Source: Halanaeroarchaeum sp. HSR-CO
Lineage (GTDB): Archaea > Halobacteriota > Halobacteria > Halobacteriales > Halobacteriaceae
Direction of reading: 5' to 3'
Assembly (NCBI RefSeq): GCF_024972755.1
Contig: NZ_CP087724.1
Span: 1,612,001-1,676,000 of the forward strand
DNA length: 64,000 nt
In this document: in pieces, positions 18,472-38,257 of the stretch
Position numbering within the stretch: the first letter of the stretch is position 1
How the letters are laid out: every line of letters starts with the position of its first letter
Notes under the pieces: generated by a model
What the model was told of the DNA's origin: nothing
What the model saw: the letters and a program-made list of their open reading frames with translations, nothing else
The model's database searches: none
Position numbers and translations under genes: made by a program

Positions 18472-18476
18472 GGACG

Positions 18477-18501
18477 GGTATGAGAATCTTACTTCAAAAG
18501 G
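18477..18501 (-). promoter_or_regulatory. Conserved promoter block of paralogue A
   Basis: This 25-base block differs at only two positions from 21934-21958, at the same distance upstream of paralogue B. On the coding strand it reads CCTTTTGAAGTAAG followed by ATTCTCATACC, just before the start. TTTTGAAG may act as the TATA-like element, giving a short or absent leader. The match implies co-regulation of the two genes. Confidence 0.5.
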
Positions 18502-18535
18502 CGTTTTTACGGCTTTGAGCAGCACTACCCCCGCC

Positions 18536-18557
18536 AAATTACCGTTTGAGGTAATTT
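18536..18557. promoter_or_regulatory. Inverted repeat AAATTACC-GTTTGA-GGTAATTT
   Basis: This perfect 8-base arm pair lies 65 bases upstream of paralogue A and has no counterpart upstream of paralogue B. It shares the ATTACC...GGTAAT core with the element at 7916-7934, so a common regulator is possible. Confidence 0.45.
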
Positions 18558-21929: not shown

Positions 21930-21933
21930 ACCC

Positions 21934-21958
21934 GGTATGAGAAACTTACTGCAAAAGG
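21934..21958 (-). promoter_or_regulatory. Conserved promoter block of paralogue B
   Basis: This block matches 18477-18501 at 23 of 25 positions and sits at the same place before the start at 21929. On the coding strand it reads CCTTTTGCAGTAAG followed by TTTCTCATACC. Confidence 0.5.
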
Positions 21959-22178
21959 GCTTGTTACGGGTTCGAGCAGCACGACGGCCGGCATATTGTC
22001 GGACGACAGAGAATCCGTGCCGGATACCTGCCAGCACCCGACGGTCGGTCACACGGACTGACCCATCCCGGAGTTCGTGGCACCGATTGGCGATACGACG
22101 ACCTACCCGCTGTAGGCACCGTTGTGCGGGTCTGGTAGTCTACAAATAACATACCAGTTCGAAGACCTGAGTACCGCT

Positions 22179-23429
22179 ATGAATCGAGCGCGCGACGGAG
22201 CAGCAGTCGTCCCAGCGATCAAGGCACCGAACTCGGTGGCACTCCTTCGCTCGCTCGGCCGCCAGGGGGTCGACACGATCGCCGTGTCGGAACACGATCG
22301 TCCGCCCGCCTTCCGCTCCCGGTACGTCGACGAGCGAGTGGCGGTCCCGGTCCCCGGCGAGGACATCGATAGGTATCGTGCGGAGCTGTTGGCCCTCGCA
22401 CGCAGAGACGACGTGCGGGCGATTCTCCCGGTCAGAGAGACGGACGTCTACGCGCTCTCGACCGATCGGGCGGCGTTCGCGGAACACGTCGCCCCAATCT
22501 GGCCGACCGCAGATGCGCTCCGGACAGTCCACGACCGGGTTCGCCTCTTCGACGTCGCCGATCGGATCGGTGTCCACACGCCCGAGACGACATTGTTGAC
22601 CGAGGTGGAAGACTGGGACCGCGAACGGATCGTCAAGGGACGTTTCGCCATCCTGGTGAACGAGTTCGTCGATACGGTCCCCCCGGGGCGAGTTGCATCG
22701 CCGCCGAAAACGATTTTCCTCGAACCAGGGACGGTCCCGTACGTCGAATCGATAATCGACGAGATGGGCCACGTCCCGATCACCCAGGAGTACGTCCGCG
22801 GAACGGAGTACTGTCTCCGGGCCCTCTACCACGATGGCGAACCGGTCGCGACGTCCCAGAAACGGCTGCGACGTGGATACAAGTACTCACGAGGGCCGAG
22901 CATCTATCACGAAGCCGCCGACATCCCCGAACTGCGAACGGCTGGACTGCGCCTGCTGAACGAACTGGAGTGGGAAGGGATCGCCTCGGTCGGTTTCATC
23001 CGCGACGAATCTGGGCGATTCAACCTCCTGGAGGTGAATCCGCGCTTTCCGGCGAGCATCCCCGTCGACATCTACGCGGGCGTGGACTATCCCGGGTACG
23101 TGTGGAACCTGGCGACCGACCAGCCACTCGATCCCCCACCGGACTACCGTCCCGGTACGGCATCACATCTCCTCCGTGGCGAGGTCGCCCACCTCCACAG
23201 CGTCGTCGTCGAGGACTATCCGATGGTCGAGCGGCCAGGAGTCGGTGCGACCGTCTGGGACATCGCGAGTTCCACGCTGCGACACCCGAACTTCGACGTT
23301 GCCAGCCTGGACGACCCCGGTCCGTTCGTCCGTGACACCTGGAACGCCGTCAGGGGGACGGTCGGCAGTTCCAGTGCTTCCATCGCCGAAACGTGGAATG
23401 CGGTTCGATCGACGTTATCGGTCAGGTGA
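22179..23429 (+). CDS. ATP-grasp carboxylate-amine ligase (copy 1)
   Basis: The 416-residue protein has an N-terminal Rossmann-like domain (AIKAPNSVALLRSLGRQGVD), then an ATP-grasp fold. Landmarks are RLFDVADRIGVHTPET, then PITQEYVRGTEYCLRALYHDG, and GRFNLLEVNPRFPASIPVD, where the E-x-N pair binds metal. This family joins a carboxylate to an amine through an acyl phosphate. I chose the ATG at 22179 (MNRARDG), which aligns with the N-terminus of the second copy at 27814. Its 3' end overlaps a deacetylase gene by eight bases in convergent orientation. A ligase beside a deacetylase occurs twice here, which suggests amide formation on an unmasked amino sugar; that is inference. Confidence 0.82.
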   Translation: MNRARDGAAVVPAIKAPNSVALLRSLGRQGVDTIAVSEHDRPPAFRSRYVDERVAVPVPGEDIDRYRAELLALARRDDVRAILPVRETDVYALSTDRAAFAEHVAPIWPTADALRTVHDRVRLFDVADRIGVHTPETTLLTEVEDWDRERIVKGRFAILVNEFVDTVPPGRVASPPKTIFLEPGTVPYVESIIDEMGHVPITQEYVRGTEYCLRALYHDGEPVATSQKRLRRGYKYSRGPSIYHEAADIPELRTAGLRLLNELEWEGIASVGFIRDESGRFNLLEVNPRFPASIPVDIYAGVDYPGYVWNLATDQPLDPPPDYRPGTASHLLRGEVAHLHSVVVEDYPMVERPGVGATVWDIASSTLRHPNFDVASLDDPGPFVRDTWNAVRGTVGSSSASIAETWNAVRSTLSVR

Positions 23430-24354
23430 CTCGATGTGCGACGTCGGCCATCGTCTCGACCCGCAGTGAGGTCTCGTGTCGCCGCCGGTCGAGATACGCG
23501 AGGACGGTCGCCAGACGGTCGACTGCGGGGGTATCGATGAGATTGTTCGGATGGAGCCAGAGATGGAAGATACCGTCGTCCATCGCGGCCCGATCGATCC
23601 CCTGTCGGGCGTGTGCGAGCATCGGATCGGTCCAGATCCGGTCGACCACCGTCGCCAGCGACCCTTCGAAACCGTAGAGGTACAGCGACGGCGGAACGAC
23701 CACCAGTCCGTACTCGTCGACGAATGGATCGACGAGCCGGACCCGATTCGACGACACCGCCGGACCGAGTTTCGCGGCGAGTCGTCCGACGGTGGATTGT
23801 GGCAGGGAGCGCTCGCCTCGATACGTGACGATGTCGTTCTCGACCAGCACGTCTCGGTGAGCGACGTAGTTGCGAGGATAGACGAACGATTGTACGGGTA
23901 TCCCCCGTCGTTCGAGCGCCTCGACGCCCATCTCGACGTCGGCAGCGAAGGTCTGCCGGGAGACCCAGTCCTCGGTGGCGACGACGTGTGAGAACGTGTG
24001 ACTCCCGACGTCGTGGTCCACGTCGGAACCGAGGAGCGCTTCGAGGACGGTGCCCCCGAATCGGAGGTCGGGGCGGTCGGCCCACTCGGTCCGCTCCGTC
24101 GAGAACCAGTCGGGTGAGGCGGGATGGTCCGGGTGGACGCCGTCGCAATCGTCCCAGAAGAGGTGGCCGACCACGGCCCAGGTGGCCGGCACCGAAAACC
24201 GGTCGAACAGGTCGACGAGCGACCGCCAGCCGTCACGGGCGGCCTCGATACGTTCCATCGGTGGCTCCGCGAAGTCGTGAAAGCCCCAGCCGAGTTCGGC
24301 ATCGACCGAGATCACGACCGATCCCACGGCGACCACCCCGCGTTGCTCATACAC
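23422..24354 (-). CDS. Polysaccharide deacetylase, CE4 type (copy 1)
   Basis: The 310-residue protein has the full NodB/CE4 metal set: Asp in VVISVDAELGWG, HTFSH in DVGSHTFSHVVAT (H-x3-H), then YPRNYVAH, and the late FHLWLHPNNL. These residues bind the metal and deacetylate N-acetyl sugars. No signal peptide is seen, so it probably acts in the cytoplasm on a lipid-linked or nucleotide-linked sugar. It starts at an ATG at 24354 and points towards the ATP-grasp gene. Confidence 0.88.
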   Translation of the reverse strand: MYEQRGVVAVGSVVISVDAELGWGFHDFAEPPMERIEAARDGWRSLVDLFDRFSVPATWAVVGHLFWDDCDGVHPDHPASPDWFSTERTEWADRPDLRFGGTVLEALLGSDVDHDVGSHTFSHVVATEDWVSRQTFAADVEMGVEALERRGIPVQSFVYPRNYVAHRDVLVENDIVTYRGERSLPQSTVGRLAAKLGPAVSSNRVRLVDPFVDEYGLVVVPPSLYLYGFEGSLATVVDRIWTDPMLAHARQGIDRAAMDDGIFHLWLHPNNLIDTPAVDRLATVLAYLDRRRHETSLRVETMADVAHRVT

Positions 24355-24611
24355 GCACCCTCAGGCCGGGAAACGATAGTTACTGACGGCTTATCGAGGA
24401 CGCTGTCGGCGGCGCCCAGGTACCCGAAACGCAACAGTTCCGAGAAATATGGGCTTACGAAACGGTTCACAGACAAGCTGGGAATTACAATCTCTCGGTC
24501 TTCGCTACTGTTCTCCATGGACACGTCGCGCGAGCGATATCGAGAGCGAACAGCGGCACATCGTATCGAGGAAGGGCGCCGACCGTGGGCACGGCCGCCG
24601 GGATCCACGTC

Positions 24612-25604
24612 ATGAGTCAGGATAACAGACCATCTTCACCGCTGGACGCGGGCGTGATCGGGGTCGGCAGCATGGGACGTAATCACGCCAGAGTGTTGAG
24701 CGAGACGCTCGACGTGAACCTCGTCGGGGTGACGGATGCCGACGGCGGCCGCGCCGAAGCGGTCGCAGCGGAATACGGGACGAGAGCGATGAGCCGGTCG
24801 CTACTGCTCTCCGTCGCGGACGTGGTCGTCGTCGCCGTCCCGACCGAGTACCACGCGGACATCGTTCGGGAATCCATGGAGGCAGACGTACACGTCCTCG
24901 TCGAGAAACCGTTCGTGGACGACCTGGAGGTGGGGCGAGAACTCGCCCGGCTGGCCGACGACAGGGGCCTCACACTCCAGGTCGGCCACATCGAGCAGTT
25001 CAACCCGGTGATGGACGTCGTCAGGGACATCGTACCGGGATTGGACGTGGTGGCCATCGACATCGACCGCCTCGGGCCGCCACTGGACCGTGAGACGAGC
25101 GACAACGTGGTGATGGACCTGATGGTCCACGACATCGACATCCTGTTCTCGCTCGTGGACGCCGACGTCACCGGAGTGTCCGCGGTCGCCCACGACGAAC
25201 AGCACGTCGCCGCGCAGTTCGCCTTCGACAACCACGCGATCGCGAGCGTGACCGCGAGCCGTCTCACCCAGCAGAAGGTCCGCAACCTCTCGATTACGGC
25301 CCACACCCGCCGCATCAACGTCGATTTCATCGCACAGAACGTGGAGATCCATCGCCGCTCCGTCCCGGAGTACATCACCACCGATGGCGACCTCCAGTAC
25401 CGTCACGAGAGCGTCGTCGAACGGCCGACAATACAGAACGGTGAACCGTTGAAACGGGAACTCGTCTCGTTCGTCGATGCCGTGACGACGGGAACGGACC
25501 CGCAGGTCACGGCCGCGGATGCCCTCGAGACACTCGAGATGGCCGAACGCATCGAATCGCTTGCACTCGCCCCGAAGGACTCCATAGAGGTGCAAGCCGA
25601 ATGA
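24612..25604 (+). CDS. Gfo/Idh/MocA oxidoreductase (WbpB-like)
   Basis: The 330-residue protein has an N-terminal NAD-binding domain with GVIGVGSMGRNHARVLSET, then VAVPTEYHADIV and VEKPFVDDLEVGRELA, the classic EKP motif. The C-terminal domain carries QVGHIEQFNPV and VMDLMVHDIDILFSLV. In WbpB and its methanogen relatives this enzyme oxidises the 3-hydroxyl of UDP-GlcNAcA. The ATG at 24612 (MSQDNRP) is preferred to that at 24585. It overlaps the nucleotide-sugar dehydrogenase gene by four bases, as WbpB and WbpA do functionally in other organisms. The exact substrate is inferred from neighbours. Confidence 0.88.
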   Translation: MSQDNRPSSPLDAGVIGVGSMGRNHARVLSETLDVNLVGVTDADGGRAEAVAAEYGTRAMSRSLLLSVADVVVVAVPTEYHADIVRESMEADVHVLVEKPFVDDLEVGRELARLADDRGLTLQVGHIEQFNPVMDVVRDIVPGLDVVAIDIDRLGPPLDRETSDNVVMDLMVHDIDILFSLVDADVTGVSAVAHDEQHVAAQFAFDNHAIASVTASRLTQQKVRNLSITAHTRRINVDFIAQNVEIHRRSVPEYITTDGDLQYRHESVVERPTIQNGEPLKRELVSFVDAVTTGTDPQVTAADALETLEMAERIESLALAPKDSIEVQAE

Positions 25605-26968
25605 GCCAACAGATCGACAGTCCACAGGGACTGTACGGATCGACGGCGACCGAAAGCGAACAACGGACCGCGTTCACCGGGGGCGATGTTCCCGTCGCCG
25701 TCTACGGCCTCGGAAAGATGGGGCTCCCGCTCGCCGCTGTCTACGCGGAGGTGACTGGGAACGTCGTCGGCGCCGATATCGACGGCGATGTCGTCGAACG
25801 GATAAATGCGGGAGAGAGTCACGTGGAGCGCGAGCCCGGACTCCCCGAACTCGTCGAGTCGCTGGTCGACCGGAAGGCACTGCAAGCCGTCTCGGACCCG
25901 ACGGAGGCCGCGAGGCGGGCAGCCGTCCACGTACTCATGGTTCCGACGCTTCTCACCGAGGACGACGCGCCCGATCTCAGCACCCTCCTCGCTGCGACTC
26001 GCGACGTTGCGACCGGCCTCTCACCCGGTGACCTCGTGATCGTCGAATCGACGGTCCCGCCGGGCACGACGGCAGACAGGATCGTCCCACTCCTCGAAGC
26101 GGAGAGCGGTCTCGAGGAGGGTGAGTTCGGGGCCGCCGCCTGTCCGGAACGCACCTCGAGCGGGCGGGCGCTCCAGGACGTTCGCGGCGCCTACCCGAAG
26201 GTCGTCGGTGGTGTCGACGACGAGAGCACCCGGGTCGCGGCACTCGTCTACGACGAGGTGAGCGACAATCGGGTCATCACCACCCCCGATGCTCGTACTG
26301 CGGAGGCCGTGAAGGTTTTCGAAGGCGTCTACCGGGACGTCAACATCGCTCTCGCCAACCAGCTATCGCGATACGCCGAGGTCGCCGATGTCGACGTCAA
26401 CGCCGCCATCGAGGTGGCCAACACCCAGCCGTTCTGTGACATCCACGACCCGGGACCCGGTGTCGGCGGCCACTGCATCCCGGTCTATCCGCATTTCCTC
26501 CTCCAGTCGTTCGACGTGGAGGCGCCACTGTTGTCCATCGCGCGCAGCGTCAACGACGGAATGCCCGCCCACACGGTCGCGACGCTCGATTCGATCCTCG
26601 AGGAGCGAGAACGTGCCATGGATGGCGCCACCGTGCTCGTCCTCGGACTCACCTATCGAGGAAACGTCGTGGAGATACGAAACGCCCCGTCGATACCAAT
26701 CGCGCGAATGCTCCAGAACAGAGGAGCCGCCGTTCTCGCGAGCGACCCTATCCTCGATGACTGGGCCGCCTTCGATGGCGTCGAGCCCATCTCGGTCGGA
26801 GCGGTGACCGAGACGGACCCGGACGCGGTCCTCGTTCTTGCCGACCACGACGAGTTCGAATCCCTCGACTGGTCGTCGTTCGACGCGCCCATCCTCGATG
26901 GCCGGAAGGTCCTCGAGGACATCGACCCCGAAACCCCGGTGTTCACCATCGGCGGCCGGCGGACGTGA
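25601..26968 (+). CDS. UDP-sugar 6-dehydrogenase (WecC/WbpA-like)
   Basis: The 455-residue length fits the UDP-glucose/UDP-GlcNAc dehydrogenase family. It has the NAD-binding VAVYGLGKMGLPLAAVYAE, VIVESTVPPGTT, ACPERTSSGRALQD, then the catalytic stretch GPGVGGHCIPVYPHFL with the active Cys, and LGLTYRGNVVEIRNAPS. The enzyme oxidises C6 of a UDP-sugar twice to the uronate. VGGHCIPVYP and the P-E-R-T-S-S-G pattern are closer to the UDP-N-acetyl-sugar (WecC/WbpA) branch. Overlap with the Gfo/Idh/MocA gene implies co-translation. Confidence 0.92.
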   Translation: MSQQIDSPQGLYGSTATESEQRTAFTGGDVPVAVYGLGKMGLPLAAVYAEVTGNVVGADIDGDVVERINAGESHVEREPGLPELVESLVDRKALQAVSDPTEAARRAAVHVLMVPTLLTEDDAPDLSTLLAATRDVATGLSPGDLVIVESTVPPGTTADRIVPLLEAESGLEEGEFGAAACPERTSSGRALQDVRGAYPKVVGGVDDESTRVAALVYDEVSDNRVITTPDARTAEAVKVFEGVYRDVNIALANQLSRYAEVADVDVNAAIEVANTQPFCDIHDPGPGVGGHCIPVYPHFLLQSFDVEAPLLSIARSVNDGMPAHTVATLDSILEERERAMDGATVLVLGLTYRGNVVEIRNAPSIPIARMLQNRGAAVLASDPILDDWAAFDGVEPISVGAVTETDPDAVLVLADHDEFESLDWSSFDAPILDGRKVLEDIDPETPVFTIGGRRT

Positions 26969-27012
26969 ATCCCCGAGAGGGGTCGAGGAGATGGTTCCCT
27001 GTTCCGGTCCGC

Positions 27013-27813
27013 TCACCGACGTGACGCGAGGTCGAGAGCGAACTTCGCCGTGTTCTTCGCGACGTCGAAGGACGTCTCGATGACCCGTTCGGGGACGGAG
27101 TTCGTCCACCGCTCGGGATGGGTGAGGAGATAAAAGCGCGTGTCCGGGAAGGCTTCGAGGAGTCGGCGGAGCTGAAACGTGGTCTCGATGGGCACCGTGG
27201 TGGCCGCTTCGCCGACCGGGTGGTCTTTGACCTTCAGGGCTCCGTCCCGCCAGGTTCGTCCGGTATCGGAGTAGTACTGCAGGCCGGTGAACTCCACCGA
27301 GAGATACGCCTCGCCGAGGAGATCGTACGACTCGAAGTCCGGGCCCGACGCCCACATATCACGGTTGTCGTGGGGCGTGAGCGGGTTCCCGTGCATGCAG
27401 ACGGTGTCGACGTCGACGAGTCGACGAACCCGCTCGAGATTGGTCCCGAACGAGCGGTGGGCGGCGTCGACGTCGCCGTCGGATCGGTCCAGGTCCTCGT
27501 AGTGGTAGCCGACCTCGTGTCCGAGTGACGCTATCTCTCTGATTACCGCGGGGTCGAACGCACCTTGCTCGGTCCGAACGTAATACGTACTCGAGAGGCC
27601 GCGGTCGGATTCGAGTCGAGCGTGGTCGAGTGCGTTCTTCGGCTTGCGATCGACGTCGTGACGAAGGACGACCGCGCCGTCGGGCACCGACTCGGCCTCG
27701 AGATACTCGCGTACGGTCAGTACCGGCCCGTCTCGGCGGTGCAGATCGTCGAGTAACGCAGCGTACGCGTCGTAGGTGAAATCGGCCGCCATAGCTCGGT
27801 CTGGTTCGATCAT
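27013..27813 (-). CDS. Polysaccharide deacetylase-like protein (copy 2)
   Basis: The 266-residue protein has LRHDVDRKPKNAL, GHEVGYHYEDLDRSDGDV, CMHGNPLTPHDNRD and YLLTHPERW, the arrangement of a diverged CE4-like (DUF7033-type) deacetylase found in archaeal glycan clusters. Metal residues Asp, His and His appear present, although HxxxH is replaced by HYEDLD. Its ATG follows directly on the stop of the ATP-grasp gene (27814-27816), so the two are almost surely translated together. The pairing repeats that at 22179-24354. Confidence 0.8.
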   Translation of the reverse strand: MIEPDRAMAADFTYDAYAALLDDLHRRDGPVLTVREYLEAESVPDGAVVLRHDVDRKPKNALDHARLESDRGLSSTYYVRTEQGAFDPAVIREIASLGHEVGYHYEDLDRSDGDVDAAHRSFGTNLERVRRLVDVDTVCMHGNPLTPHDNRDMWASGPDFESYDLLGEAYLSVEFTGLQYYSDTGRTWRDGALKVKDHPVGEAATTVPIETTFQLRRLLEAFPDTRFYLLTHPERWTNSVPERVIETSFDVAKNTAKFALDLASRR

Positions 27814-29013
27814 TCACTTCAGGAGAACGTGTTCGAGGCCACGAACGAAGGGCATCGGATCGTCGAATCGCAGCAAGTCGAAGTTCGGCGTATCGATACA
27901 GGAGGCGCCGACCTCCCAGGCGGTTCTGGTGAACGAGGGGGGTTCGACGAAGGGCGAATCCTCGGTGAGGATGCTCTGGAGGTGCCCGAGTTCACCGTAC
28001 AGCAGGTGGGAGCCGACCCCCACCTCGTAGTCGTCGATGGCGGCCTCGGCCTCGACCTCGCCGTTGGCCACCTGCCAGTACCGATAGGGAAAGTCGGCCC
28101 CTGCGTGGTCGGCACACGCGAGCGACTGCCACAGGCGGGGATTGATCTCGGTCAGCACGTATTCGCCCGTGTCCGCGCGTTTCATGTATTCGATGCAGGC
28201 GAGACCGTGGAAATCCAGATGATCGAGGAGCCTCCGAGCCACCCGGTCGAGTTCCGGGTCGTCGATCGATTTCCGGTAGACACCACCACCACCGCTGTAG
28301 GAGTCGCCACGGATCTGGCGATGCTGGAAGGTGGTCACCGGTTCCCCGTGGTCGTAGAGCGCTCCGTAGAGGTACTCGTCGGAGGAGGTAACGTACTCCT
28401 GGACGATCGGCGTATGCAACATCTCGGATTCGATGGCGTCGACGTCGGGTGCCGTGCCGGCCGGGACGGGCGTCACCGACTTCGCCGTCGCCACGTCGCC
28501 ATCCTCGAAGTGAGAGACGTTCTCCGGAGTCAGGAGGTTGTATCGCGATTTGATGATCCGATCGGTATCCCAGCAGTCGACGTCCGACAGAAGTGTGGTC
28601 TCGGGAACGGGCACCCCCGCTTCGATGCCGGCTTCGACCAGTTGCATCCGGTCGAAGACGACGTTCAGGAGAGCCGACGAGGGAGAGACCAGCGAGACGT
28701 AGCGTTCGAACTCCTCCTCGTAACGGGCGAACAGGAACGCGTCCTGGGCCCGGAGTGGCAATATCGTCTGTACGTCCGCTCTGGCCGCGATGCCCAGGAG
28801 TGCGTCCTTGTAGGCGATGAGGTCGTCGTACGGCGATGGTATCTCGACGAATTCGTCAGCGAACCGCGAGGCCGCAGAAGGGGTGTCTTCGTACTCAGAT
28901 GCGACGATGGTGTGAATACCACGTCGGGACAACGACCGCGTGCTGACGTATCCTCCTGGTTCGAACCCCATGGGGATCAATGCGGACTCGCGGGTGGACC
29001 CGGTACTGGCCAT
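27814..29013 (-). CDS. ATP-grasp carboxylate-amine ligase (copy 2)
   Basis: This 399-residue ATP-grasp protein parallels the copy at 22179. Landmarks are MGFEPGGYVSTRSLSRRGIH, VFDRMQLVEAGIEAGVPVPE, PIVQEYVTSSDEYLYGALYD, and GEYVLTEINPRLWQSLA, with E-x-N metal residues. I start at the ATG at 29013 by comparison with copy 1, but ATGs at 29040 and 29220 remain possible and would add up to 69 residues that look coding-like (SFWRRYRPIVRNPKEYG). The next gene on the strand, a deacetylase, begins right after the stop. The acid and amine joined are unknown. Confidence 0.8.
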   Translation of the reverse strand: MASTGSTRESALIPMGFEPGGYVSTRSLSRRGIHTIVASEYEDTPSAASRFADEFVEIPSPYDDLIAYKDALLGIAARADVQTILPLRAQDAFLFARYEEEFERYVSLVSPSSALLNVVFDRMQLVEAGIEAGVPVPETTLLSDVDCWDTDRIIKSRYNLLTPENVSHFEDGDVATAKSVTPVPAGTAPDVDAIESEMLHTPIVQEYVTSSDEYLYGALYDHGEPVTTFQHRQIRGDSYSGGGGVYRKSIDDPELDRVARRLLDHLDFHGLACIEYMKRADTGEYVLTEINPRLWQSLACADHAGADFPYRYWQVANGEVEAEAAIDDYEVGVGSHLLYGELGHLQSILTEDSPFVEPPSFTRTAWEVGASCIDTPNFDLLRFDDPMPFVRGLEHVLLK

Positions 29014-29327
29014 GGTCCGAGTAACCCATCCTGAAGCCATTGTAATGCCACCGCTACTTTCGCCGCCCCAGTACGGGGTCCGTGCTGCGGTAGCGTCGAA
29101 TGTTCGCCCGAATCGTTCGCGCCAATCGTCGGGCGAACGAGCGCGCAGCGGCCAGGTTCGCGGGCCGTATTCCTTTGGATTCCTGACGATCGGCCGATAG
29201 CGTCGCCAGAACGACCCCATCGGGTGTCAACAGGGAGGTAGGCGTCGTATAACCATAACCGAGACCGAACATCGGTAGCCCATGAGCAGATGCCGGGGCC
29301 GGAGTCCGAGAAATCACGTGTAGTCCA

Positions 29328-30257
29328 ATGCGCGTACTCAATCTCATCACCGACCCGACCGTCCCGCCGTTCACCCAGCAGGTGGCGGCCCTCGCCGACA
29401 TCGGGGTCGAACAGACGACCGTCTCGGTCCCGGGAACCCGTCGCACGGGTGACAACGGCGAGACGACGCGGTCGATCGTCGACTACCTCAGATTCTATCC
29501 GTCGGTCCTTCGCGCATCGTTCGGGGACTTCGACGTCGTCCACGCCAACTACGGGTTGACCGCACCAGCGGCGCTCTGTCAACTCCGGCTACCGGTCGTC
29601 GTCTCCCTGTGGGGATCCGACCTCATGGGACAGTATAGTCGCCTCAGCCAGTGGTGTGCCCGATTCGCCGACGCGACCATCGTGATGAGTGCCGAGATGG
29701 ACGCGGTCCTCGCCACCGACAGTCACGTCATCCCACACGGCGTCGATCTGTCGTTGTTCGAACCGACGTCGAAACGCGAGGCCAGGGAAGCGGTGGGATG
29801 GGATCACGACGTCGAACACGTCCTGTTTCCCTATTCGACCTCGCGCTCCGTCAAAGACTATCCGCGAGCAGAGCGCGTGGTCGAGCGCGTCGACGAACGA
29901 CTGGACCAACCTGTGGTCCTGCAGTCGCTCGATCACGTCCCCCACGAGACCGTGCCGACGTACATGAACGCGGCCGACGTGATGCTACTCACCTCGAGAC
30001 GGGAAGGCTCACCGAATACGGTGAAGGAGGCGATGGCGTGTAATCTGCCAGTCGTCTCGACCGACGTCGGCGACGTCCGCGAGCGTCTCTCGGACGTCCA
30101 TCCCTCCCACATCGGGGAGTCCGATGAAGAACTCGTCGAAGGCCTGATCGACGTCCTCGAACGTGGGGTCGCTTCGAACGGACGGGCGGTCGCACAGTCG
30201 CTCGGTCTGGAATCGATGGCCAGGCAGATACGGTCGGTGTACGAGTCGGTCGTCTGA
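29328..30257 (+). CDS. Family 4 glycosyltransferase (GT-B fold)
   Basis: The 309-residue protein is short for GT4 but has the fold's marks: MRVLNLITDP, DVVHANYGLTAP, VVSLWGSDLMGQYSR, VIPHGVDLSLFEP, and the donor-binding REGSPNTVKEAMACNLPVVS-type E-x7-E pair. It starts at the ATG at 29328, divergent from the ATP-grasp gene. The donor is unknown. It is probably cytoplasmic or membrane-associated. Confidence 0.88.
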   Translation: MRVLNLITDPTVPPFTQQVAALADIGVEQTTVSVPGTRRTGDNGETTRSIVDYLRFYPSVLRASFGDFDVVHANYGLTAPAALCQLRLPVVVSLWGSDLMGQYSRLSQWCARFADATIVMSAEMDAVLATDSHVIPHGVDLSLFEPTSKREAREAVGWDHDVEHVLFPYSTSRSVKDYPRAERVVERVDERLDQPVVLQSLDHVPHETVPTYMNAADVMLLTSRREGSPNTVKEAMACNLPVVSTDVGDVRERLSDVHPSHIGESDEELVEGLIDVLERGVASNGRAVAQSLGLESMARQIRSVYESVV

Positions 30258-30554
30258 TCCGACCAGACGGTCGACCGAATAGTTCGGTTGCTGGGCCCAC
30301 TTCGCTGGTCCAGACGGTCCACCGCGTATCGACGTACCGGGTAGCCCATCCGTTCCTCTTTGATCGACGCACCGGCCGGGCCAATTGACCCGAACGACCA
30401 TCGGTACCCGGTCGACGAGCCGCTCCCGATCGAGTCCATCCGTCGCTCTTCGCAGATCACTCTGCTCGTTGGGGCGGCGTCGAGATAACCCCGCCTTATC
30501 TGCGGTACGCCCTGCATAACAATCGTCGCGCTATCTGTACGAATTCCTCACAGG

Positions 30555-32504
30555 ATGAATCCTCGTTCCTCGAATCGCGATCGGTCCACGTCCAGCTCAC
30601 TCGGTCTCCTCGTGGCGTGGCTCGGGATCGCTGTGGCCGTCTTGTTGTTGGGTCTCCGTCTCCTTGCCGACCAGGTATACCTTCTCGCCATCCCACTCGG
30701 ACTGGGGGTCGCATCCATTCTCTACGTGCTCGCGAGCTCGCGATGGCGGTCTGGCAGCCCCATCCCGACCGTTCCGACACGGGCGATCGACGTTCTCCCG
30801 TCTGTCGTCCTCCTCGCGCTCGCCGTGCTGGTCTTCCGGACCAGAACGCCCACTCCCAGAACGGGTATCGATTACCTCCTGGCCGCGGTCGTCGGTGGAG
30901 CGATTCTCGCCCAGGTACTGCTCGTCGGTGATGACCGATTCGCACCGGCGCCCGTCCTCGTCCAGGTTGGGTTGGCAGCGCTGGTCATCCGGTTCAGCGT
31001 CCTGTTCGGGACGGCCGGGTTCGTGGGCGTCGATGCCTGGACCCACGTCCCAGTCTACGTGCAGAACATCGCCGCCAGCGGATCACTATCGGCCATCGCG
31101 GACAGCAAGTACGTCATGGCGCCGATCTACCACCTCGTGGGGGCAGTCGGAACCACCCTCTTCGGCGATCCACGGGTCGCCGTCTTCCTCGCCATCGGGG
31201 CCCTCATCCCCCTCTCCATGGTCTTCGTCTACGCGACCGCAGCGGTCTTCGTCTCCGCTCGCTGGGCCGTGCTCGCCGCCACCGTCTACGCGTTCGCCGA
31301 CCAGTTCATCCGCTGGGGGATCCACGTCATCCCGACCAGTCTCGCACTCGTGTTCTTCCTGGCCGTGCTCTATCTGCTGACACTGACCCTCCTCGGCGAT
31401 CGGGAACCGTGGGTCCTCACGCTCCTGGTCGGTTTCAGCCTGGCAGTCGTGTTCACTCACCAGGTCACGACGGCGATCCTCCTCGTCCTCCTCGCGGTGG
31501 GGGTCGGAGTCGCGACGCTCGCCCGGATGACGGAGACGGATGCACCGAGTCCAGTCCCGGTCGCGGGAGTCTTCGTCCTGACCCTCGGGGTGACGGTTCT
31601 GAGCTGGCTCAACACCCCGTTCGGGGACGAATCGATATTCCTCTACAACCGACTCGAACTGCTCGCGGTCGCGGCCAACGACATCGGTTTCCTGCAACTC
31701 GCCGCCGACCACGCGGCCCCACCGACGATGGAGCTGCCAGTGTCGGGGTCGCCATCACCCGTCGGTCGGCTCGCCGACGTCGTCGGGTTCACCGTGCTCT
31801 TCGGTATCGCGGCCGTCGGGGGCTTGACCGCGCTGGACTGGGACCGTCCAGCGGGACCGACGTACCTCCTGCTCGTCACGGCCGGGTTGCTGTTCGTCGC
31901 CGTCTTCGGCTTGCAGTTCATCGGCTTCCGGATCCTGATCCCGGGACGATGGACCGTGTTCCTGTACGCGCTACTGGCTATCCTGGGTGCGATCGGTGTC
32001 GCGACGCTCTACGATCGGGCACCACGGGGTGTCATCATCGCCGCCGTCGTCCTGCTCGCAGCGGTCTACCCGGCCACGATGGTCGTCGCGGAGAAGTCGT
32101 CCCTGGACAGTCCCGCCTTCGAGGACACGTTCACGAAGTACGCGTACTCCGAATCCGAGATAGCCGCCCTCGAGACCATCGGAACGATCCACCCGCCGAG
32201 CGTCGAGGACGACATCCGGACGGACCACCCCTACGTCGCCATCTACAAATCACCAGGTGGGTACGACGCTCGAACGCTGGCCGTGAACGAGAGTGGGCCG
32301 GTCGAACCGACACCGGTCCTGTATCGAAGCTACCAGTCGGAGGGCAGGGTGGTCTTCGATGCTGGTGCGGACGAGCCGAGAGCAAGTGTCGCCGGTAGCT
32401 ATCCGGCCGACTTCGTCTGTCAGTCCGACTGGGATCGGGTGTACGTCAACGACGAAGTCACGATGTGCACTCCGGTCGGCGATGACGTGGAGGCGCCAGC
32501 ATGA
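30555..32504 (+). CDS. Large polytopic membrane protein, glycan locus
   Basis: The 649-residue protein has about 13-15 membrane helices between residues 15 and 500, then an outside domain of about 130 residues with two Cys near the end (ADFVCQSDWDRVYVNDEVTMC). A loop after the first helices of the middle region reads VGVDAWTHVPVYVQNIAASG, similar in place to the acidic loop of GT-C type glycosyltransferases that use lipid-linked sugars, but I cannot assign it firmly. It overlaps the next gene, a DUF1616 protein, by four bases. It may be a GT-C transferase, polymerase or transporter. Confidence 0.75.
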   Translation: MNPRSSNRDRSTSSSLGLLVAWLGIAVAVLLLGLRLLADQVYLLAIPLGLGVASILYVLASSRWRSGSPIPTVPTRAIDVLPSVVLLALAVLVFRTRTPTPRTGIDYLLAAVVGGAILAQVLLVGDDRFAPAPVLVQVGLAALVIRFSVLFGTAGFVGVDAWTHVPVYVQNIAASGSLSAIADSKYVMAPIYHLVGAVGTTLFGDPRVAVFLAIGALIPLSMVFVYATAAVFVSARWAVLAATVYAFADQFIRWGIHVIPTSLALVFFLAVLYLLTLTLLGDREPWVLTLLVGFSLAVVFTHQVTTAILLVLLAVGVGVATLARMTETDAPSPVPVAGVFVLTLGVTVLSWLNTPFGDESIFLYNRLELLAVAANDIGFLQLAADHAAPPTMELPVSGSPSPVGRLADVVGFTVLFGIAAVGGLTALDWDRPAGPTYLLLVTAGLLFVAVFGLQFIGFRILIPGRWTVFLYALLAILGAIGVATLYDRAPRGVIIAAVVLLAAVYPATMVVAEKSSLDSPAFEDTFTKYAYSESEIAALETIGTIHPPSVEDDIRTDHPYVAIYKSPGGYDARTLAVNESGPVEPTPVLYRSYQSEGRVVFDAGADEPRASVAGSYPADFVCQSDWDRVYVNDEVTMCTPVGDDVEAPA

Positions 32505-33469
32505 GTGGGTGGTTCGATCGGTCCCATCGGTTCGACGGCACCCAACCCTGGACGACCGACCTCGTCGGCGTGGTCCTCTGGACCGTGATCGCGAGTTTCG
32601 GCTTCGTCGCCCTCGGAGACCCAAGTTGGGTGATGGCGGCGGTAGGGCTCCCGTTGCTCGTGTTCCTCCCGGGCTACGCGTTGATGGCCGCCATCTTTCC
32701 GGCAGCCCCGTCCCAGGAGGTCGTGGGTGAGCGGTTCGACGGCGGTCGAACGAGCTGGGTCGGCAGACTCGCGATGGCGATCGCCGCGAGTCCGGTCATC
32801 GTCGCGGCCGTCGGCTACCTGCTCAGTCTGACGGTCGGCATCGGCCGGGTGCCAGCGGTGGTCGGAATCGGCACTGTCACCGTTCTCGGGGTGCTCGTCG
32901 CTGGCGTCCGTCGGAACCGTCTCGCGCCGAACGGGCGTGCTGCACCATTGGACGGCGCACTCCCGGTGGTCGAGAACCTGTTCGGGACGAGTGGCCTCCA
33001 GAAGGTGACGACCGCCGTCGCGCTGATCGCGTTCGTCGTCGCCGTCGCCTACGTCGGGGTTACCCCCGCGGATGGCGACGCTTACTCCGAGGTGGCCCTG
33101 CTCTCGGAGAACGAGACCGGCGACCTCGTGGCCACTGGCTACACCTCGACGTACGTCGCGGGTCAGGAGGAGCCACATCACATCGCCGTCTGGAACCACG
33201 AGGGGAACGAGACGACCTACGGAGTAGTGACGGTCGTCCAATCGGTCGACTCGAACGGGTCCGTCACGGCCCAACAGCGTCTCGACGAGACGACGGTCAC
33301 CGTCGAGGACGGAAAACGGGCGGTCGTCGAACGGTCGATCGCCCCCACCATGACCGGGTCCGAGCTCCGACTCCACACCGCCGTGTACAAGGGCGGGCTC
33401 CCCGACGAACCACGGCCCGCCGAAGCACCGTACTCCGTCCACCGCTGGATCGTAGTCGAGGGAGGGTGA
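32501..33469 (+). CDS. DUF1616 membrane protein
   Basis: The 322-residue protein has four to five membrane helices: two near residues 23-63, two near 90-130, and one near 168-188. A soluble outside domain of about 120 residues follows, with GDAYSEVALLSENETGDLVA and an immunoglobulin-like strand pattern. That layout matches DUF1616, common in archaeal glycan and surface loci. It overlaps both neighbours (ATGA with the gene before, GTGA with the gene after), so the three form one translational unit. The function is unknown. Confidence 0.82.
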   Translation: MSGWFDRSHRFDGTQPWTTDLVGVVLWTVIASFGFVALGDPSWVMAAVGLPLLVFLPGYALMAAIFPAAPSQEVVGERFDGGRTSWVGRLAMAIAASPVIVAAVGYLLSLTVGIGRVPAVVGIGTVTVLGVLVAGVRRNRLAPNGRAAPLDGALPVVENLFGTSGLQKVTTAVALIAFVVAVAYVGVTPADGDAYSEVALLSENETGDLVATGYTSTYVAGQEEPHHIAVWNHEGNETTYGVVTVVQSVDSNGSVTAQQRLDETTVTVEDGKRAVVERSIAPTMTGSELRLHTAVYKGGLPDEPRPAEAPYSVHRWIVVEGG

Positions 33470-34398
33470 AAACGGTGAGCGACCGTTCCCTCGAGGGGGC
33501 GACGGTCCTGGTGACCGGCGGTGCGGGGTTCATCGGGAGTCACATCGCGGACGCCCTCGTCGACCGTGCCGAGGTTCGGGTCCTCGACGACCTCTCCACC
33601 GGAAAGGCCGACTACGTCCCCGAGACTGCCGAACTCATCGTCGGCGACGTCTGCGAGACGACCACACTCGTCGAGGCGATGAGTGGCGTGGACGTGGTCT
33701 TCCACGAAGCCGCGGTGGTAAGCGTAGACGACTCCATCGCCCGCCCGCTCGAAACGGATTCTATCAACGTAGACGGGACGCTGCAGGTCCTCGAAGCGGC
33801 CCGTCGCGAAGGTGCGCGAGTCGTGTTCGCGTCGAGCGCGGCGGTGTACGGCCACCCCGACAGCATTCCGGTACCCGAATCCGACCGGACGGCCCCGGAA
33901 TCACCGTATGGGGTGAGCAAACTCGCCGCCGATCAGTACGTCCGACTCTTCGCCGACCTCTACGACGTGCCGACGGTCGCGCTCCGGTATTTCAACGTCT
34001 ACGGTCCACGCCAGTCGGGCGAGTACGCCGGGGTCGTGACGGCCTTCGTCGAGCAGGCGCGATCGGGTGGACCCATCACGGTCCACGGCGATGGGAAACA
34101 GACTCGAGATTTCGTCCACGTCGACGACGTCGTCCGGGCGAACCTCCGTGCGGCGACCACCGATGAGGTCGGCGAGGCGTTCAACGTGGGAACGGGATCG
34201 AGCGTGACCATCCGAGAACTCGGCGAGAAGGTACGGTCGCTCGTCGATCCGGACGTGGACATCGTCCACACCGCACCGAGAGACGGCGATATCGACGAGA
34301 GCCGTGCGGACACGGAGAAGTCACGTTCGAGGCTCGGATTCGACTCGAAGGTGGAGCTTTCCGAGGGACTGTCGACGGTCCCAGGCGCCACGAACTGA
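33466..34398 (+). CDS. NAD-dependent sugar epimerase/dehydratase
   Basis: This 310-residue protein is an extended short-chain dehydrogenase: VLVTGGAGFIGSHIADAL (NAD-binding), VVFHEAAVVSV, VFASSAAVYGHP (catalytic Ser/Thr region), and SPYGVSKLAADQYVRLF (Tyr-x3-Lys). It most resembles UDP-glucose 4-epimerase-like enzymes of archaeal glycan clusters. The start is a GTG at 33466 overlapping the DUF1616 stop (GTGA); a second GTG at 33475 is possible. The sugar product cannot be decided by eye. Confidence 0.88.
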   Translation: MKTVSDRSLEGATVLVTGGAGFIGSHIADALVDRAEVRVLDDLSTGKADYVPETAELIVGDVCETTTLVEAMSGVDVVFHEAAVVSVDDSIARPLETDSINVDGTLQVLEAARREGARVVFASSAAVYGHPDSIPVPESDRTAPESPYGVSKLAADQYVRLFADLYDVPTVALRYFNVYGPRQSGEYAGVVTAFVEQARSGGPITVHGDGKQTRDFVHVDDVVRANLRAATTDEVGEAFNVGTGSSVTIRELGEKVRSLVDPDVDIVHTAPRDGDIDESRADTEKSRSRLGFDSKVELSEGLSTVPGATN

Positions 34399-34538
34399 CC
34401 GAACTCGGTATGCTCGGCATAACGAAGTGTTCGTTCCGTGTGTCAGAAACTACATGAACAGCGGACGGTTCGACAGACGGCACGCTACCGAACCACCATC
34501 GAGAGTCGCCGACCAGCCACGACCACCAGGAGGAGCCG

Positions 34539-35468
34539 ATGTCCACCCTCGATGACCATCCGTTCGCGCTCGCGCTCACGCACGACGTCGATCGGGTCAG
34601 AAAGACCTACCAGGCACTCTACTACGCGATGACGCGTCGCGACCCCGGATCACTCCTGGACCTCCTGCCGGGTCGGAGCCCCTACTGGCAGTTCCAGACG
34701 GTGATGGACATCGAATCCGACCTGGGCGTCCGCTCGGCGTTCTACTTCCTCGACGAGCGATCGTTGTTCGGCGAGCGGCCACCTCGCGAGTGGCTCGATC
34801 CGACATCCTGGCGCCTGTACGCGGGTCGATACGACCTGGCTGAGCGGGAGATCACGGACACTGTCGTCGAACTCGACGAAGGCGGGTGGGAAATCGGCCT
34901 CCACGGGTCCTACGATTCTTACCGAAACCCGGACCAGCTCCGGAGAGAGAAGCGACGACTCGAGCGCATCCTCGGCCACCCCGTCATGGGGGGCCGTCAA
35001 CACTACCTGAACCTGAAGCGGCCCGACACCTGGAAGTACCAGGCGGCCGCGGGGCTCCGCTACGACTCGTCGCTGGGATCGAGTTCCGAGTACGGCTTCG
35101 ATGGGCGATACGAGCCGTTCCGGCCCTTCGACGACGAGTTCGTGGTGTTCCCGTTGACGGTCATGGAGAAGACCCTGCCGGCCGTCGAATCGGATCCGGA
35201 GCGCGCCTGGGCAGTCTGCGAGGATCTCCTCCAGGAGGCACGCGAGAACGCAGCCGTGATGACGGTGCTCTGGCACCCCAGTTACTTCTACGACCGCGAC
35301 CACCCGAACTACGGGACGATCTACCGCAGACTGATCGAACGGGCACTGGAGATGGGTGCCTGGGTCGGCCCACCCGGGGAGATCTACCGATCGCTGGACC
35401 ATCCGACCACCCGCGCGGGCTGGACGGAATCTGAATCACTGATCGACGACGCACGGGGCGGTGTCTGA
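34539..35468 (+). CDS. Polysaccharide deacetylase-like protein (copy 3)
   Basis: The 309-residue protein opens with FALALTHDVDRVRKTYQALY, where HDVD is the metal-binding start of this deacetylase-like family. GGWEIGLHGSYDSYRNPDQL and GGRQHYLNLKRPDTW follow, and a late TVLWHPSYFYDRDHPNYG supplies His residues. These match archaeal members of the CE4-like clan often seen in glycan loci. It overlaps the FemAB-like gene by eight bases, suggesting a functional pair. Confidence 0.8.
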   Translation: MSTLDDHPFALALTHDVDRVRKTYQALYYAMTRRDPGSLLDLLPGRSPYWQFQTVMDIESDLGVRSAFYFLDERSLFGERPPREWLDPTSWRLYAGRYDLAEREITDTVVELDEGGWEIGLHGSYDSYRNPDQLRREKRRLERILGHPVMGGRQHYLNLKRPDTWKYQAAAGLRYDSSLGSSSEYGFDGRYEPFRPFDDEFVVFPLTVMEKTLPAVESDPERAWAVCEDLLQEARENAAVMTVLWHPSYFYDRDHPNYGTIYRRLIERALEMGAWVGPPGEIYRSLDHPTTRAGWTESESLIDDARGGV

Positions 35469-36483
35469 CGTGGATATCGAACGTGTCGATCTCGACGCGT
35501 GGGAACAGGCCCTCCCAGCCGATGGCTTCGAGGTGTTCCACACCCCCGAAGCTCTTCGAGTGCTCGCAGACCACGCGACCGGAGAGCTCCAGTTGTACGT
35601 CGGCTACAAGGGGGATCGACCGGTCGGAATGCTCCCCGTCGTCGTCAGGGAACGCCTGGGGCGGGCCGTCGTCTCGCCACCCCCGGGAATGGGTATCCCG
35701 CGTCTCGGCCCGCTCGTCATGCCCGCGAGCCCGAAACGCCGCAAGCGCGAACGGGTCGCCCGCCGATTCACCGAATCCGTCCTCGATACCCTCGACGCTT
35801 CGGGGTCGGGAACGCTCGTCCGCATCATCTGTCCGGTCAGCTGTACGGACCCCCGCCCGTTTTCCTGGGAGGGGCTATCGGTGGAACCGTCGTTCACCTA
35901 CTCGCTCGATACAGCCGGTAGCGATCCCGACGAACTCCTCGCCTCGTTTAGCAAGAGCCTCCGGCGGGAGATCCGCGACGCCCAGGAACTGGACGTGTCG
36001 GTCTCCGTCGAGGGAATGGAGGCCGCCAGAACCATATTCGAGCGGACCCGCGACCGATACCGGGAACAGGACCGGTCGTACTCGATGGAGTGGCCCTACG
36101 TCCGCGACCTCCTCGGGGAACTGGCCGAGGTCGACCGACGGCGAGTGTACGTCGCTCGCGACGAAGACGGAGAGTTCCTTACAGGGGTGACGGCGCTGTA
36201 CTCCAACGAGGCCGCGTACTACTGGCAGGGCGGGGCCCGAGCGACATACGAGAACGTCAACGTCAACAGCCTCGTCCACTGGACGATATTGACGGATATC
36301 CTCGAGGATCCGCCAATCGAGTCGGTCACCAGATACGACCTGGTCGGCGCGAACACGGAACGGCTCTGCCGCTACAAGAGCAAGTTCGGCGCCGATCTCG
36401 AACCGTACTACGTCGCCGAGACGTCGGGGGCCGGGATGTCGCTGGCCAAACGGGCCTACGGCACGCTCGACTCGATCGTCTAA
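35461..36483 (+). CDS. FemAB/GNAT-like peptidyl or acyl transferase
   Basis: The 340-residue protein has the double-GNAT layout of the FemAB / Acetyltransf_6 group: an N-terminal half beginning with FHTPEALRVLADHATGELQL, then RPVGMLPVVVRERLGRAVVS, and a C-terminal half with SFSKSLRREIRDAQ, EREQDRSYSMEW-like residues, and YYWQGGARATYENVNVNSLV. Bacterial relatives move amino acids from aminoacyl-tRNA to peptidoglycan, or acyl groups to surface polymers. Archaea lack peptidoglycan, so a glycan amine is a possible acceptor. The start is GTG at 35461 inside the previous gene; a GTG at 35470 is an alternative. Confidence 0.78.
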   Translation: MSDVDIERVDLDAWEQALPADGFEVFHTPEALRVLADHATGELQLYVGYKGDRPVGMLPVVVRERLGRAVVSPPPGMGIPRLGPLVMPASPKRRKRERVARRFTESVLDTLDASGSGTLVRIICPVSCTDPRPFSWEGLSVEPSFTYSLDTAGSDPDELLASFSKSLRREIRDAQELDVSVSVEGMEAARTIFERTRDRYREQDRSYSMEWPYVRDLLGELAEVDRRRVYVARDEDGEFLTGVTALYSNEAAYYWQGGARATYENVNVNSLVHWTILTDILEDPPIESVTRYDLVGANTERLCRYKSKFGADLEPYYVAETSGAGMSLAKRAYGTLDSIV

Positions 36484-36545: not shown

Positions 36546-37172
36546 ATGGTTTCACAGTCTACTCCGGAGGAGAGTCGTATCGCGGGCGAGATCGGGCACG
36601 CTCGACTCGGTTCGAACGTGACAGTCGAGGCGCGCGCGACGGTCGGCTACGTCCACGACGAGCACGCAGAACCGACCATCGTCGGAGACGGCGCACACAT
36701 CCGCTCGGGCACTATCGTCTACGCCGACGTCGAACTGGGCGCGGACGTCACGACGGGGCATCGCGCACTGGTCCGCGAGGCCACGACTGTCGGCTCCTCG
36801 ACCCTCCTCGGAACCGGATCCGTCCTCGATGGCCGCGTCACCGTGGGGTCGAATGTCAGCATCCAGACGAACGTCTACGTCCCGACCGAGACGGTCATCG
36901 GCGATCGCGTGTTCCTCGGCCCTAGCGCCGTGCTGACGAACGATCCGTACCCACTTCGCCAGGACGTCGACCTGGTCGGTCCGACACTCGAGGACGACGT
37001 GACCGTCGGCGCGAACGCGACCGTCCTGCCTGATCTCACTATCGGTGAGGGGTCGTTCGTCGCGGCAGGCGCCGTCGTCACGGACGACGTCCCACCCGAA
37101 AGTCTCGTGGTGGGTATCCCGGGCGAACATCGACCACTCCCGGACCCCCTCAAGGGAGGGAACCGCTCGTGA
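36546..37172 (+). CDS. Hexapeptide-repeat acetyltransferase (WbpD-like)
   Basis: The 208-residue protein is almost all left-handed beta-helix: repeated I-G-x-x-V hexads (IVGDGAHIRSGTIVYADVEL, GSNVSIQTNVYVPTETVIGD), an Asn-Asp-Pro-Tyr-Pro loop, then ATVLPDLTIGEGSFVAAGAVVTDDVP and a short C-terminal helix. The loop and tail resemble WbpD/WlbB-type N-acetyltransferases that acetylate a UDP-3-amino-sugar. I chose the ATG at 36546 over the long upstream frame, which is a shadow of the FemAB gene. It overlaps the aminotransferase gene (GTGA), the enzyme that would make its substrate. Confidence 0.9.
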   Translation: MVSQSTPEESRIAGEIGHARLGSNVTVEARATVGYVHDEHAEPTIVGDGAHIRSGTIVYADVELGADVTTGHRALVREATTVGSSTLLGTGSVLDGRVTVGSNVSIQTNVYVPTETVIGDRVFLGPSAVLTNDPYPLRQDVDLVGPTLEDDVTVGANATVLPDLTIGEGSFVAAGAVVTDDVPPESLVVGIPGEHRPLPDPLKGGNRS

Positions 37173-38257
37173 TCCCCATCGCTGCACCGACCTTCGGCCC
37201 GACCGAGCGCGAGGCCGTTGCCGAAGTCCTGAAAGACGGGACGGTGGCCGATGGACCGGTCGTCCGTGAGTTCGAAGCGGAGTTCGCGTCGTACTGCGGC
37301 GTCGAATACGGGGCCGGAATGGCCAACGGCACGCTCGCGCTCCACGCCGCGCTGGAGGCACTCGACATCGGTGCCGGCGACACCGTCGTCACCACGCCCT
37401 TCTCGTTCGTCGCGAGTGCGAACGCCATCAGGCTGGCCGGGGCGACCCCCGCGTTCGCCGACATCGACCCCGAGACGTTCGCGCTCGACCCACACGCGAC
37501 CGAACGGCGAGTCCGCGAGACGGACGCCGACGCCATCCTCGCAGTCCACCTCTACGGCCTCCCCGCTGATATGGCGGCCCTCGGAGACATCGCCGAGGAC
37601 GCCGGTATCCCGCTCGTCGAGGACGCTGCCCAGGCACACGGGGCCCAGTACGGTGGCGACCCCGTCGGCTCGTTCGGCGACGCGGCCGCCTTCTCGTTCT
37701 ACCCGACCAAGAACATGACCACTGGCGAGGGTGGGATGGTCGTCACCGACCGGGAGGACGTGGCCCGACGGGCCGCAAGTTTCGCGAATCACGGTCGGAC
37801 CCAGGATGGCACCTACGCGCACGAACGACTGGGCACCAACTACCGGATGACCAGTCTCGCAGCGGCTATCGGTCGCGTCCAGCTGGACAAGTTGGCCGGC
37901 TGGGTCCGGACGCGCCGGTCGAATGCCGCCCGGCTGACCGAGACGATAGAACCGGTTCCGGGGGTCGAAGCACCCGTCGAGCCCGACGGGCGGACGCACG
38001 CGTACCACCAGTACACCATCCGTACGGAACATCGTGAGCGCTTCCGGGACGAACTTGCGGGTGCGGGGGTGGACACGGCCATCTACTATCCGACGCCGAT
38101 ACACCAGCTGGGGGCCTACGACGACTTCGACGTCGACGCCCCCGTCGCCGAGCGAGCGGCCTCAGAGGTCGTCTCCCTCCCGGTCCATCCGGAGCTATCG
38201 GCGGACGACGTCGAGACCATCACCGCTGCCCTCCAGCAGACCACGATCGAAGCCTGA
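37169..38257 (+). CDS. DegT/DnrJ/EryC1 sugar aminotransferase (WbpE-like)
   Basis: The 362-residue PLP enzyme begins with IPIAAPTFGPTEREAVAEVL, has ALEDIG-type cofactor strands, VEDAAQAHGAQYGG, then the Schiff-base Lys in SFYPTKNMTTGEGGMVVT, and NYRMTSLAAAIGRVQL. The family adds an amino group to a keto-sugar nucleotide. The GTG start at 37169 overlaps the acetyltransferase stop. Together with the Gfo/Idh/MocA enzyme at 24612 it fits the 3-amino step of UDP-GlcNAc(3NAc)A synthesis. Confidence 0.92.
   Translation: MIPIAAPTFGPTEREAVAEVLKDGTVADGPVVREFEAEFASYCGVEYGAGMANGTLALHAALEALDIGAGDTVVTTPFSFVASANAIRLAGATPAFADIDPETFALDPHATERRVRETDADAILAVHLYGLPADMAALGDIAEDAGIPLVEDAAQAHGAQYGGDPVGSFGDAAAFSFYPTKNMTTGEGGMVVTDREDVARRAASFANHGRTQDGTYAHERLGTNYRMTSLAAAIGRVQLDKLAGWVRTRRSNAARLTETIEPVPGVEAPVEPDGRTHAYHQYTIRTEHRERFRDELAGAGVDTAIYYPTPIHQLGAYDDFDVDAPVAERAASEVVSLPVHPELSADDVETITAALQQTTIEA

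Follow-up and report, generated by a model that had tools for sequence, protein, structure and literature searches.

A candidate haloarchaeal counterpart of the bacterial Wbp/Vim pathway for N-aminoacylated diamino uronic sugars, with accompanying ATP-grasp/deacetylase genes

In the 2.79 Mb genome of the haloarchaeon Halanaeroarchaeum sp. HSR-CO, genes for deacetylase-like proteins lie beside genes for enzymes expected to form amide bonds, raising the question of what becomes of the amines that deacetylation would free. The genes are found within a 64,000-nucleotide stretch of contig NZ_CP087724.1 (positions 1,612,001 to 1,676,000), here called the window. They encode two ATP-grasp ligase homologues (GRASP1 and GRASP2), two NodB/CE4-type deacetylase homologues (CE4a and CE4b), and a third deacetylase-like protein followed by a FemAB/GNAT-like transferase. 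All six had been named in an initial annotation, and all are present as open reading frames with normal start and stop codons (Table 1). That annotation treated them as three pairs of one repeated module for exchanging N-acetyl groups on amino sugars and knew of no described archaeal glycan pathway with this set. Comparison with protein families and other genomes bears this out in part and makes it more specific: the locus probably makes a diamino uronic sugar, removes one of its acetyl groups and N-aminoacylates the freed amine. Judged by homology, the locus corresponds in an archaeon to a pathway already known from bacteria; what is new are the ATP-grasp/CE4 variants.

The bacterial Wbp/Vim pathway, which the initial annotation did not recognise, is proposed to produce 2-N-seryl or 2-N-glycyl, 3-N-acetyl uronic sugars in Porphyromonas gingivalis and Tannerella forsythia (PMC7468200, Veith 2020). 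VimE is proposed to remove the C-2 acetyl group and VimA to add the amino acid, and when vimA was exchanged between the two species, Gly was added in place of Ser (PMC7468200). In P. gingivalis the sugars join the C-termini of type IX secretion system cargo; VimA of this species also matches TIGR03019, and VimA relatives occur near exosortases (PMC7468200).

Each of the four enzymes for the synthesis of UDP-2,3-diacetamido-2,3-dideoxy-glucuronate (UDP-GlcNAc3NAcA), namely WbpA, WbpB, WbpD and WbpE, has a homologue in the window, likewise overlooked initially. These assignments are by homology, with the cut-offs of the specific equivalog models not attained; the four genes flank the others and point to the likely sugar. 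The third deacetylase has NF053580 (UDP-2,3-diacetamido-2,3-dideoxy-glucuronate deacetylase VimE) as its sole NCBIfam match below E=0.001, and it is likewise the one NCBIfam family matched by 19 of 19 aligned homologues. Its gene overlaps that of the FemAB-like protein by eight bases (GTGTCTGA), as had been reported, and this pair is the best supported of the three. Among homologues of the latter, 15 of 18 match TIGR03019 and the remaining three match FemX. A homologous set of Wbp enzymes, a VimE-family deacetylase and a VimA relative is gathered in one cluster in many haloarchaea, often with a glycosyltransferase (GT) behind VimA, as VimF accompanies VimA and VimE in bacteria. The FemAB-like protein is unlikely to be a simple N-acyltransferase that replaces the acetyl group with an acyl group other than an amino acid. 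Its PF13480 GNAT family is broad and includes ordinary acyltransferases, but the homologues share TIGR03019 with VimA or match FemX, and in its own organism VimA determines whether Ser or Gly is added (PMC7468200).

The resemblance to the bacterial system has limits. The window contains no WbpI-type epimerase and has extra ATP-grasp/CE4 pairs, and type IX secretion is not expected. No TIGR03108 match to a WbpS-type amidotransferase exceeded the cut-off in the whole genome; WbpS is an optional feature of Wbp/Vim, present in P. gingivalis and absent from T. forsythia. The exopolysaccharide loci of PEP-CTERM/exosortase systems, with a TIGR03006 deacetylase and a TIGR03019 FemAB protein, offer another comparison, as there too a deacetylase and a FemAB relative are encoded side by side. 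However, no exosortase was seen in the archaeal cluster and its deacetylase scores higher against VimE than against TIGR03006.

Distribution was assessed in 146 Halobacteriales genomes, with gene order counted on 120 loci; the two locus sets share some genomes. A VimE-like gene is present in 82 genomes and 33 of 56 genera, mostly at 50–64% identity. VimE and VimA occur together in 75 genomes, with seven carrying VimE only, one VimA only and 63 neither (Fisher p=5e-32), and for 68 of 86 VimE copies there is a VimA gene no more than 10 kb away. Among haloarchaeal families a recurring order is wbpD-wbpE-wbpB-wbpA-(GT, wbpI)-vimE-vimA-(GT4). VimA lies <300 bp 3' of VimE in 55 of the 120 loci, and GT4 <300 bp 3' of VimA in 31. 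Outside Halobacteriales, 46 loci from the same phylum were picked by VimE match; at 17 of these, in methanogen relatives, VimA is immediately downstream of VimE, in some cases as two or three tandem copies. On homology, VimE/VimA-type genes are common in haloarchaea and methanogens. Many Wbp/Vim clusters of haloarchaea (L036, L042, L051 and others) additionally have, at their edge, a more distant VimA paralogue (~35–41% identity) that adjoins a PF01663 phosphodiesterase.

This conservation makes it highly improbable that a mixed glycan island has simply gathered ordinary genes with no functional relation, as Wbp, VimE and VimA keep their order and occur together in many families and also beyond Halobacteriales. 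Glycan islands do shuffle genes, the GRASP2-CE4b adjacency is not conserved, and gene-distance correlations fail to single out VimE/VimA. In the mirror-tree test of VimE against VimA every gene pair correlates (r 0.84–0.93), and as all do so alike the test is uninformative.

Where the ATP-grasp genes fit is best seen from their positions in other genomes. At three loci (L187, L207, L222) an ATP-grasp gene, over the PF15632 cut-off, lies directly behind VimE in the slot usually taken by VimA. Three of six such slot cases give p ~0.001 under a simple one-gene-slot model, a rough figure. A further candidate behind VimE, at L189, was dropped as unconfirmed, with Pfam finding no ATP-grasp domain there. 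The three loci support ATP-grasp as an alternative amide-former, and this occupancy is the best evidence to suggest that ATP-grasp and FemAB proteins do equivalent amide-forming work, as the initial annotation had supposed.

Both GRASP proteins appear to be ATP-grasp superfamily members of the CPS-like, PurK and biotin-carboxylase type. The GRASP2 model, with a predicted local distance difference test (pLDDT) score of 81, gave 445 matches in the PDB at E<=0.001; the best was 2pn1, and the set includes CPS-like, PurK and biotin carboxylase structures. By alignment GRASP2 keeps the usual metal-site residues (IEY...EINPR). Searches of GRASP1 and the VimE- and VimA-like proteins against PDB sequences with phmmer yielded nothing useful. 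GRASP homologues are found in 89 of the 146 genomes with GRASP2 as query and 81 with GRASP1, frequently in multiple copies. A second GRASP1 paralogue (59% identical) is encoded elsewhere in the same genome (L158:8267-9466; C1, ~688.3 kb), and none of the window's glycan genes were found around it.

The adjacency of ATP-grasp and deacetylase genes, proposed as a check in other haloarchaea, was upheld for one combination and not for the other. With the window itself counted, 11 of 108 GRASP homologues lie within 2 kb of a CE4a homologue against 0.19 expected under uniform placement, and these pairs occur in several arrangements. The order GRASP1-CE4a-WbpB-WbpA is kept in two genomes that have neither VimE nor VimA (G039, G003; loci L159, L160), while GRASP2-CE4a stands beside a WbpD-WbpA...VimE-VimA cluster in two others (G038, G026). 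Both window pairs are adjacent as originally described, and in the second, on the minus strand, the stop codon of GRASP2 abuts the start of CE4b. The first requires correction, as GRASP1 and CE4a are convergent with tails overlapping by eight bases and are therefore neighbours rather than one operon.

The three deacetylase-like proteins (DEACETYLASES), CE4a, CE4b and the VimE-like protein, all resemble NodB-fold hydrolases and none passes a Pfam cut-off. CE4a has conserved motifs (SVDAE, HTFSH, PRN, LHPNN) and homologues in 75 of the 146 genomes. A Pfam search with CE4b returned no match; the top 25 PDB matches of its AlphaFold model (pLDDT 85) are CE4-type enzymes, with a modest TM-score to the query of <=0.48. 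CE4b and the VimE-like protein have the HDVDR signature in common and differ in their histidine motifs. CE4b recurs in Wbp/Vim clusters and belongs with these rather than with GRASP2, and the single repeated ATP-grasp/CE4 module of the initial annotation was rejected. Two adjoining CE4b-like deacetylases were seen near VimE in non-halophilic relatives (L190:3162-5644, L218:1766-4393).

ATP-grasp enzymes might instead join an amino acid or ammonia to the carboxylate of the uronic acid, a possible though doubtful role that is compatible with the proposed function of the VimE/VimA-like proteins. The locus is predicted to make uronic acids, and the genome lacks a WbpS-type amidotransferase over cut-off. 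A precedent exists in Methanococcus N-glycans, which contain GlcNAc3NAcA and carry Thr at C-6 of a uronic acid, an attachment for which the enzyme was still unidentified in a 2010 review (PMC2952790). These glycans resemble the predicted product in having GlcNAc3NAcA and a sugar-joined amino acid in an archaeon, but in them the C-6 carboxyl bears the amino acid, whereas the pathway proposed here would use a sugar amine. Amidation of a carboxylate would also require no deacetylase, yet ATP-grasp genes pair with CE4a and lie directly behind VimE-type deacetylases in the VimA slot.

Halococcus morrhuae provides a possible link to a haloarchaeal cell wall. Its wall is reported to contain N-glycyl-glucosaminyl bridges (Steber and Schleifer 1979, cited in PMC4187196). 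The H. morrhuae genome carries WbpD-E-B-A, a GT, WbpI and VimE in a row (L114); a strong VimA lies on a different contig. The haloarchaeon with this reported aminoacylated amino sugar has Wbp, VimE and VimA homologues, and this gene content fits a connection to the wall sugar without proving it.

Several observations weigh against N-aminoacylation of a diamino uronic sugar by these genes. The archaeal proteins are much diverged: the VimE-like protein scores 63.4 bits, far below the NF053580 equivalog cut-off of 440, which is reached in none of 197 genomes of the phylum, so the label VimE-like is used and the locus is not filed as a strict Wbp/Vim member. TIGR03019 matches of VimA-like homologues are likewise far under cut-off, and the co-occurrence statistics are uncorrected for shared ancestry. 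In GRASP1 (SVGF) and its two closest aligned relatives Gly replaces the first Glu, a usual Mg ligand of the superfamily, as in biotin carboxylase. Immediate GRASP2-CE4b adjacency was seen in this genome only within the sample. Finally, the Halococcus compound is described as N-glycyl-glucosamine and not as a diaminouronic acid. Aminoacylation of a deacetylated amino sugar nonetheless appears likely because of the VimE/VimA pairing, the Wbp genes, the ATP-grasp genes in the VimA slot and the H. morrhuae genes.

The analysis itself establishes the gene content, the folds and families, the conserved order, the co-occurrence and the presence of ATP-grasp genes in the VimA slot; from these we infer each chemical step of the proposed pathway, as well as which acetyl group is removed, the amino acid and the final glycan. 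The WbpA, B, E and D homologues would convert UDP-GlcNAc to UDP-GlcNAc3NAcA. The VimE-like enzyme would then take off one N-acetyl group, by analogy that at C-2, and the VimA-like FemAB enzyme encoded by the overlapping gene would attach an amino acid to the amine so exposed. Transfer to a surface glycan may then be carried out by a glycosyltransferase, for example the nearby GT4. In parallel, the ATP-grasp/CE4 genes most likely serve a step of the same kind, in which a second deacetylase (CE4a or CE4b) would free an amine and the ATP-grasp ligase would form the amide with ATP rather than from a pre-activated aminoacyl donor, acting on another sugar or at a different place in the glycan. Deacetylation followed by amide formation, as first suggested from the DNA, agrees with the roles proposed for the closest characterised homologues, VimE and VimA (PMC7468200); for the ATP-grasp proteins this chemistry is presumed.

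A broader scheme is conceivable but unlikely, in which VimA/FemAB-like and ATP-grasp amide-formers are interchangeable after a dedicated deacetylase in the aminoacylation of diamino uronic sugars and tandem VimA proteins build short peptides, providing the surface glycans of archaea with amino-acid bridges like the FemXAB bridges of peptidoglycan. In methanogen relatives two or three VimA-like genes lie in tandem or close behind VimE (L195:5443-8654, L200:3167-6200, L188:3722-8396), and a Haloferax locus has two (L137:12623-14756). Such copies are suggestive of stepwise amino-acid additions.

It is very unlikely that the aminoacyl sugar serves as an attachment point for C-terminally sorted proteins via archaeosortase, as for type IX cargo. 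This idea draws on the linkage of Wbp/Vim sugars to cargo C-termini in P. gingivalis and on the VimA relatives near exosortases (PMC7468200), and the gene directly beside the cluster (40140-42503, minus strand) encodes a VWA-domain surface protein that has a PGF-CTERM-like tail and is probably a substrate of archaeosortase. However, archaeosortase A (ArtA) is near-universal, being present in 122 of 122 good genomes, whereas VimE is present in 75 of these, and ArtA of this genome is ~1 Mb distant.

Table 1. Genes of the predicted sugar pathway and the accompanying ATP-grasp/CE4 pairs, in window coordinates.
Feature	Position	Strand	Assignment and supporting matches
GRASP1	22179..23429	+	ATP-grasp carboxylate-amine ligase homologue; Pfam ATPgrasp_Ter PF15632 30.3 bits, cut-off 29.1
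CE4a	23422..24354	-	NodB/CE4-type deacetylase homologue; Polysacc_deac_1 20.7 bits, below cut-off 23.1
WbpB-like	24585..25604	+	UDP-GlcNAc(A) 3-dehydrogenase homologue; PF01408 84 bits; NF040723 (UDP-GlcNAc 3-dehydrogenase) 194 bits, below equivalog cut-off
WbpA-like	25601..26968	+	UDP-HexNAc 6-dehydrogenase homologue; TIGR03026 351 bits, over cut-off; 4-base overlap with wbpB-like gene
CE4b	27013..27813	-	RHDVDRKP-type NodB-fold deacetylase homologue; AlphaFold model; recurs inside Wbp/Vim clusters
GRASP2	27814..29220	-	ATP-grasp ligase homologue; Pfam ATPgrasp_Ter 21.6 bits, below 29.1; model matches ATP-grasp structures
GT4	29328..30257	+	Glycosyltransferase homologue; PF13692; homologue directly 3' of VimA in many haloarchaea
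Sugar epimerase/dehydratase	33466..34398	+	NAD-dependent; PF01370 220.8 bits
VimE-like	34539..35468	+	Putative UDP-GlcNAc3NAcA N-deacetylase; NF053580 VimE 1.4e-17, 63.4 bits; motifs HDVDR, GLHGSY, RQH, WHP
VimA-like	35461..36483	+	Putative FemAB/GNAT N-aminoacyltransferase; PF13480 75.8 bits, cut-off 22
WbpD-like	36546..37172	+	Hexapeptide N-acetyltransferase homologue; PF00132 94 bits; ATG start at 36546
WbpE-like	37169..38257	+	DegT/PLP aminotransferase homologue; PF01041 391.5 bits; 4-base overlap with wbpD-like gene

Other genes surround the cluster. A PMT_2-like membrane protein and then a DUF1616 protein are encoded at 30555-33469 on the plus strand, with DUF1616 homologues in 10 of 80 named Wbp/Vim loci. 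By sequence inspection, a sugar nucleotidyltransferase (6561-7769, minus strand) and a GlmS-like aminotransferase (8917-10734, plus strand) could supply UDP-GlcNAc. Two adjoining genes for secreted beta-helix-type proteins (16180-18537 and 20529-22052, minus strand) have near-identical C-terminal halves, the mark of a recent duplication, and genes of similar type recur next to Wbp/Vim clusters in other genomes.

We know of no assignment of genes to the amino-acid-bearing wall sugars observed in Halococcus in 1979. Searches of open-access papers turned up no earlier account of the pathway in archaea, nor of its archaeal distribution, the ATP-grasp substitution or the Halococcus connection. Relatives of the cluster occur in culturable Haloferax species, making the pathway directly testable. 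If the proposed pathway is correct, these would be candidate genes for the amino-acid-bearing sugars of archaeal walls, and Wbp/Vim logic, so far described in bacteria, would be widespread in archaea and independent of type IX secretion. Should ATP-grasp enzymes truly substitute for VimA, they would represent a second, ATP-driven route to N-aminoacyl sugars.

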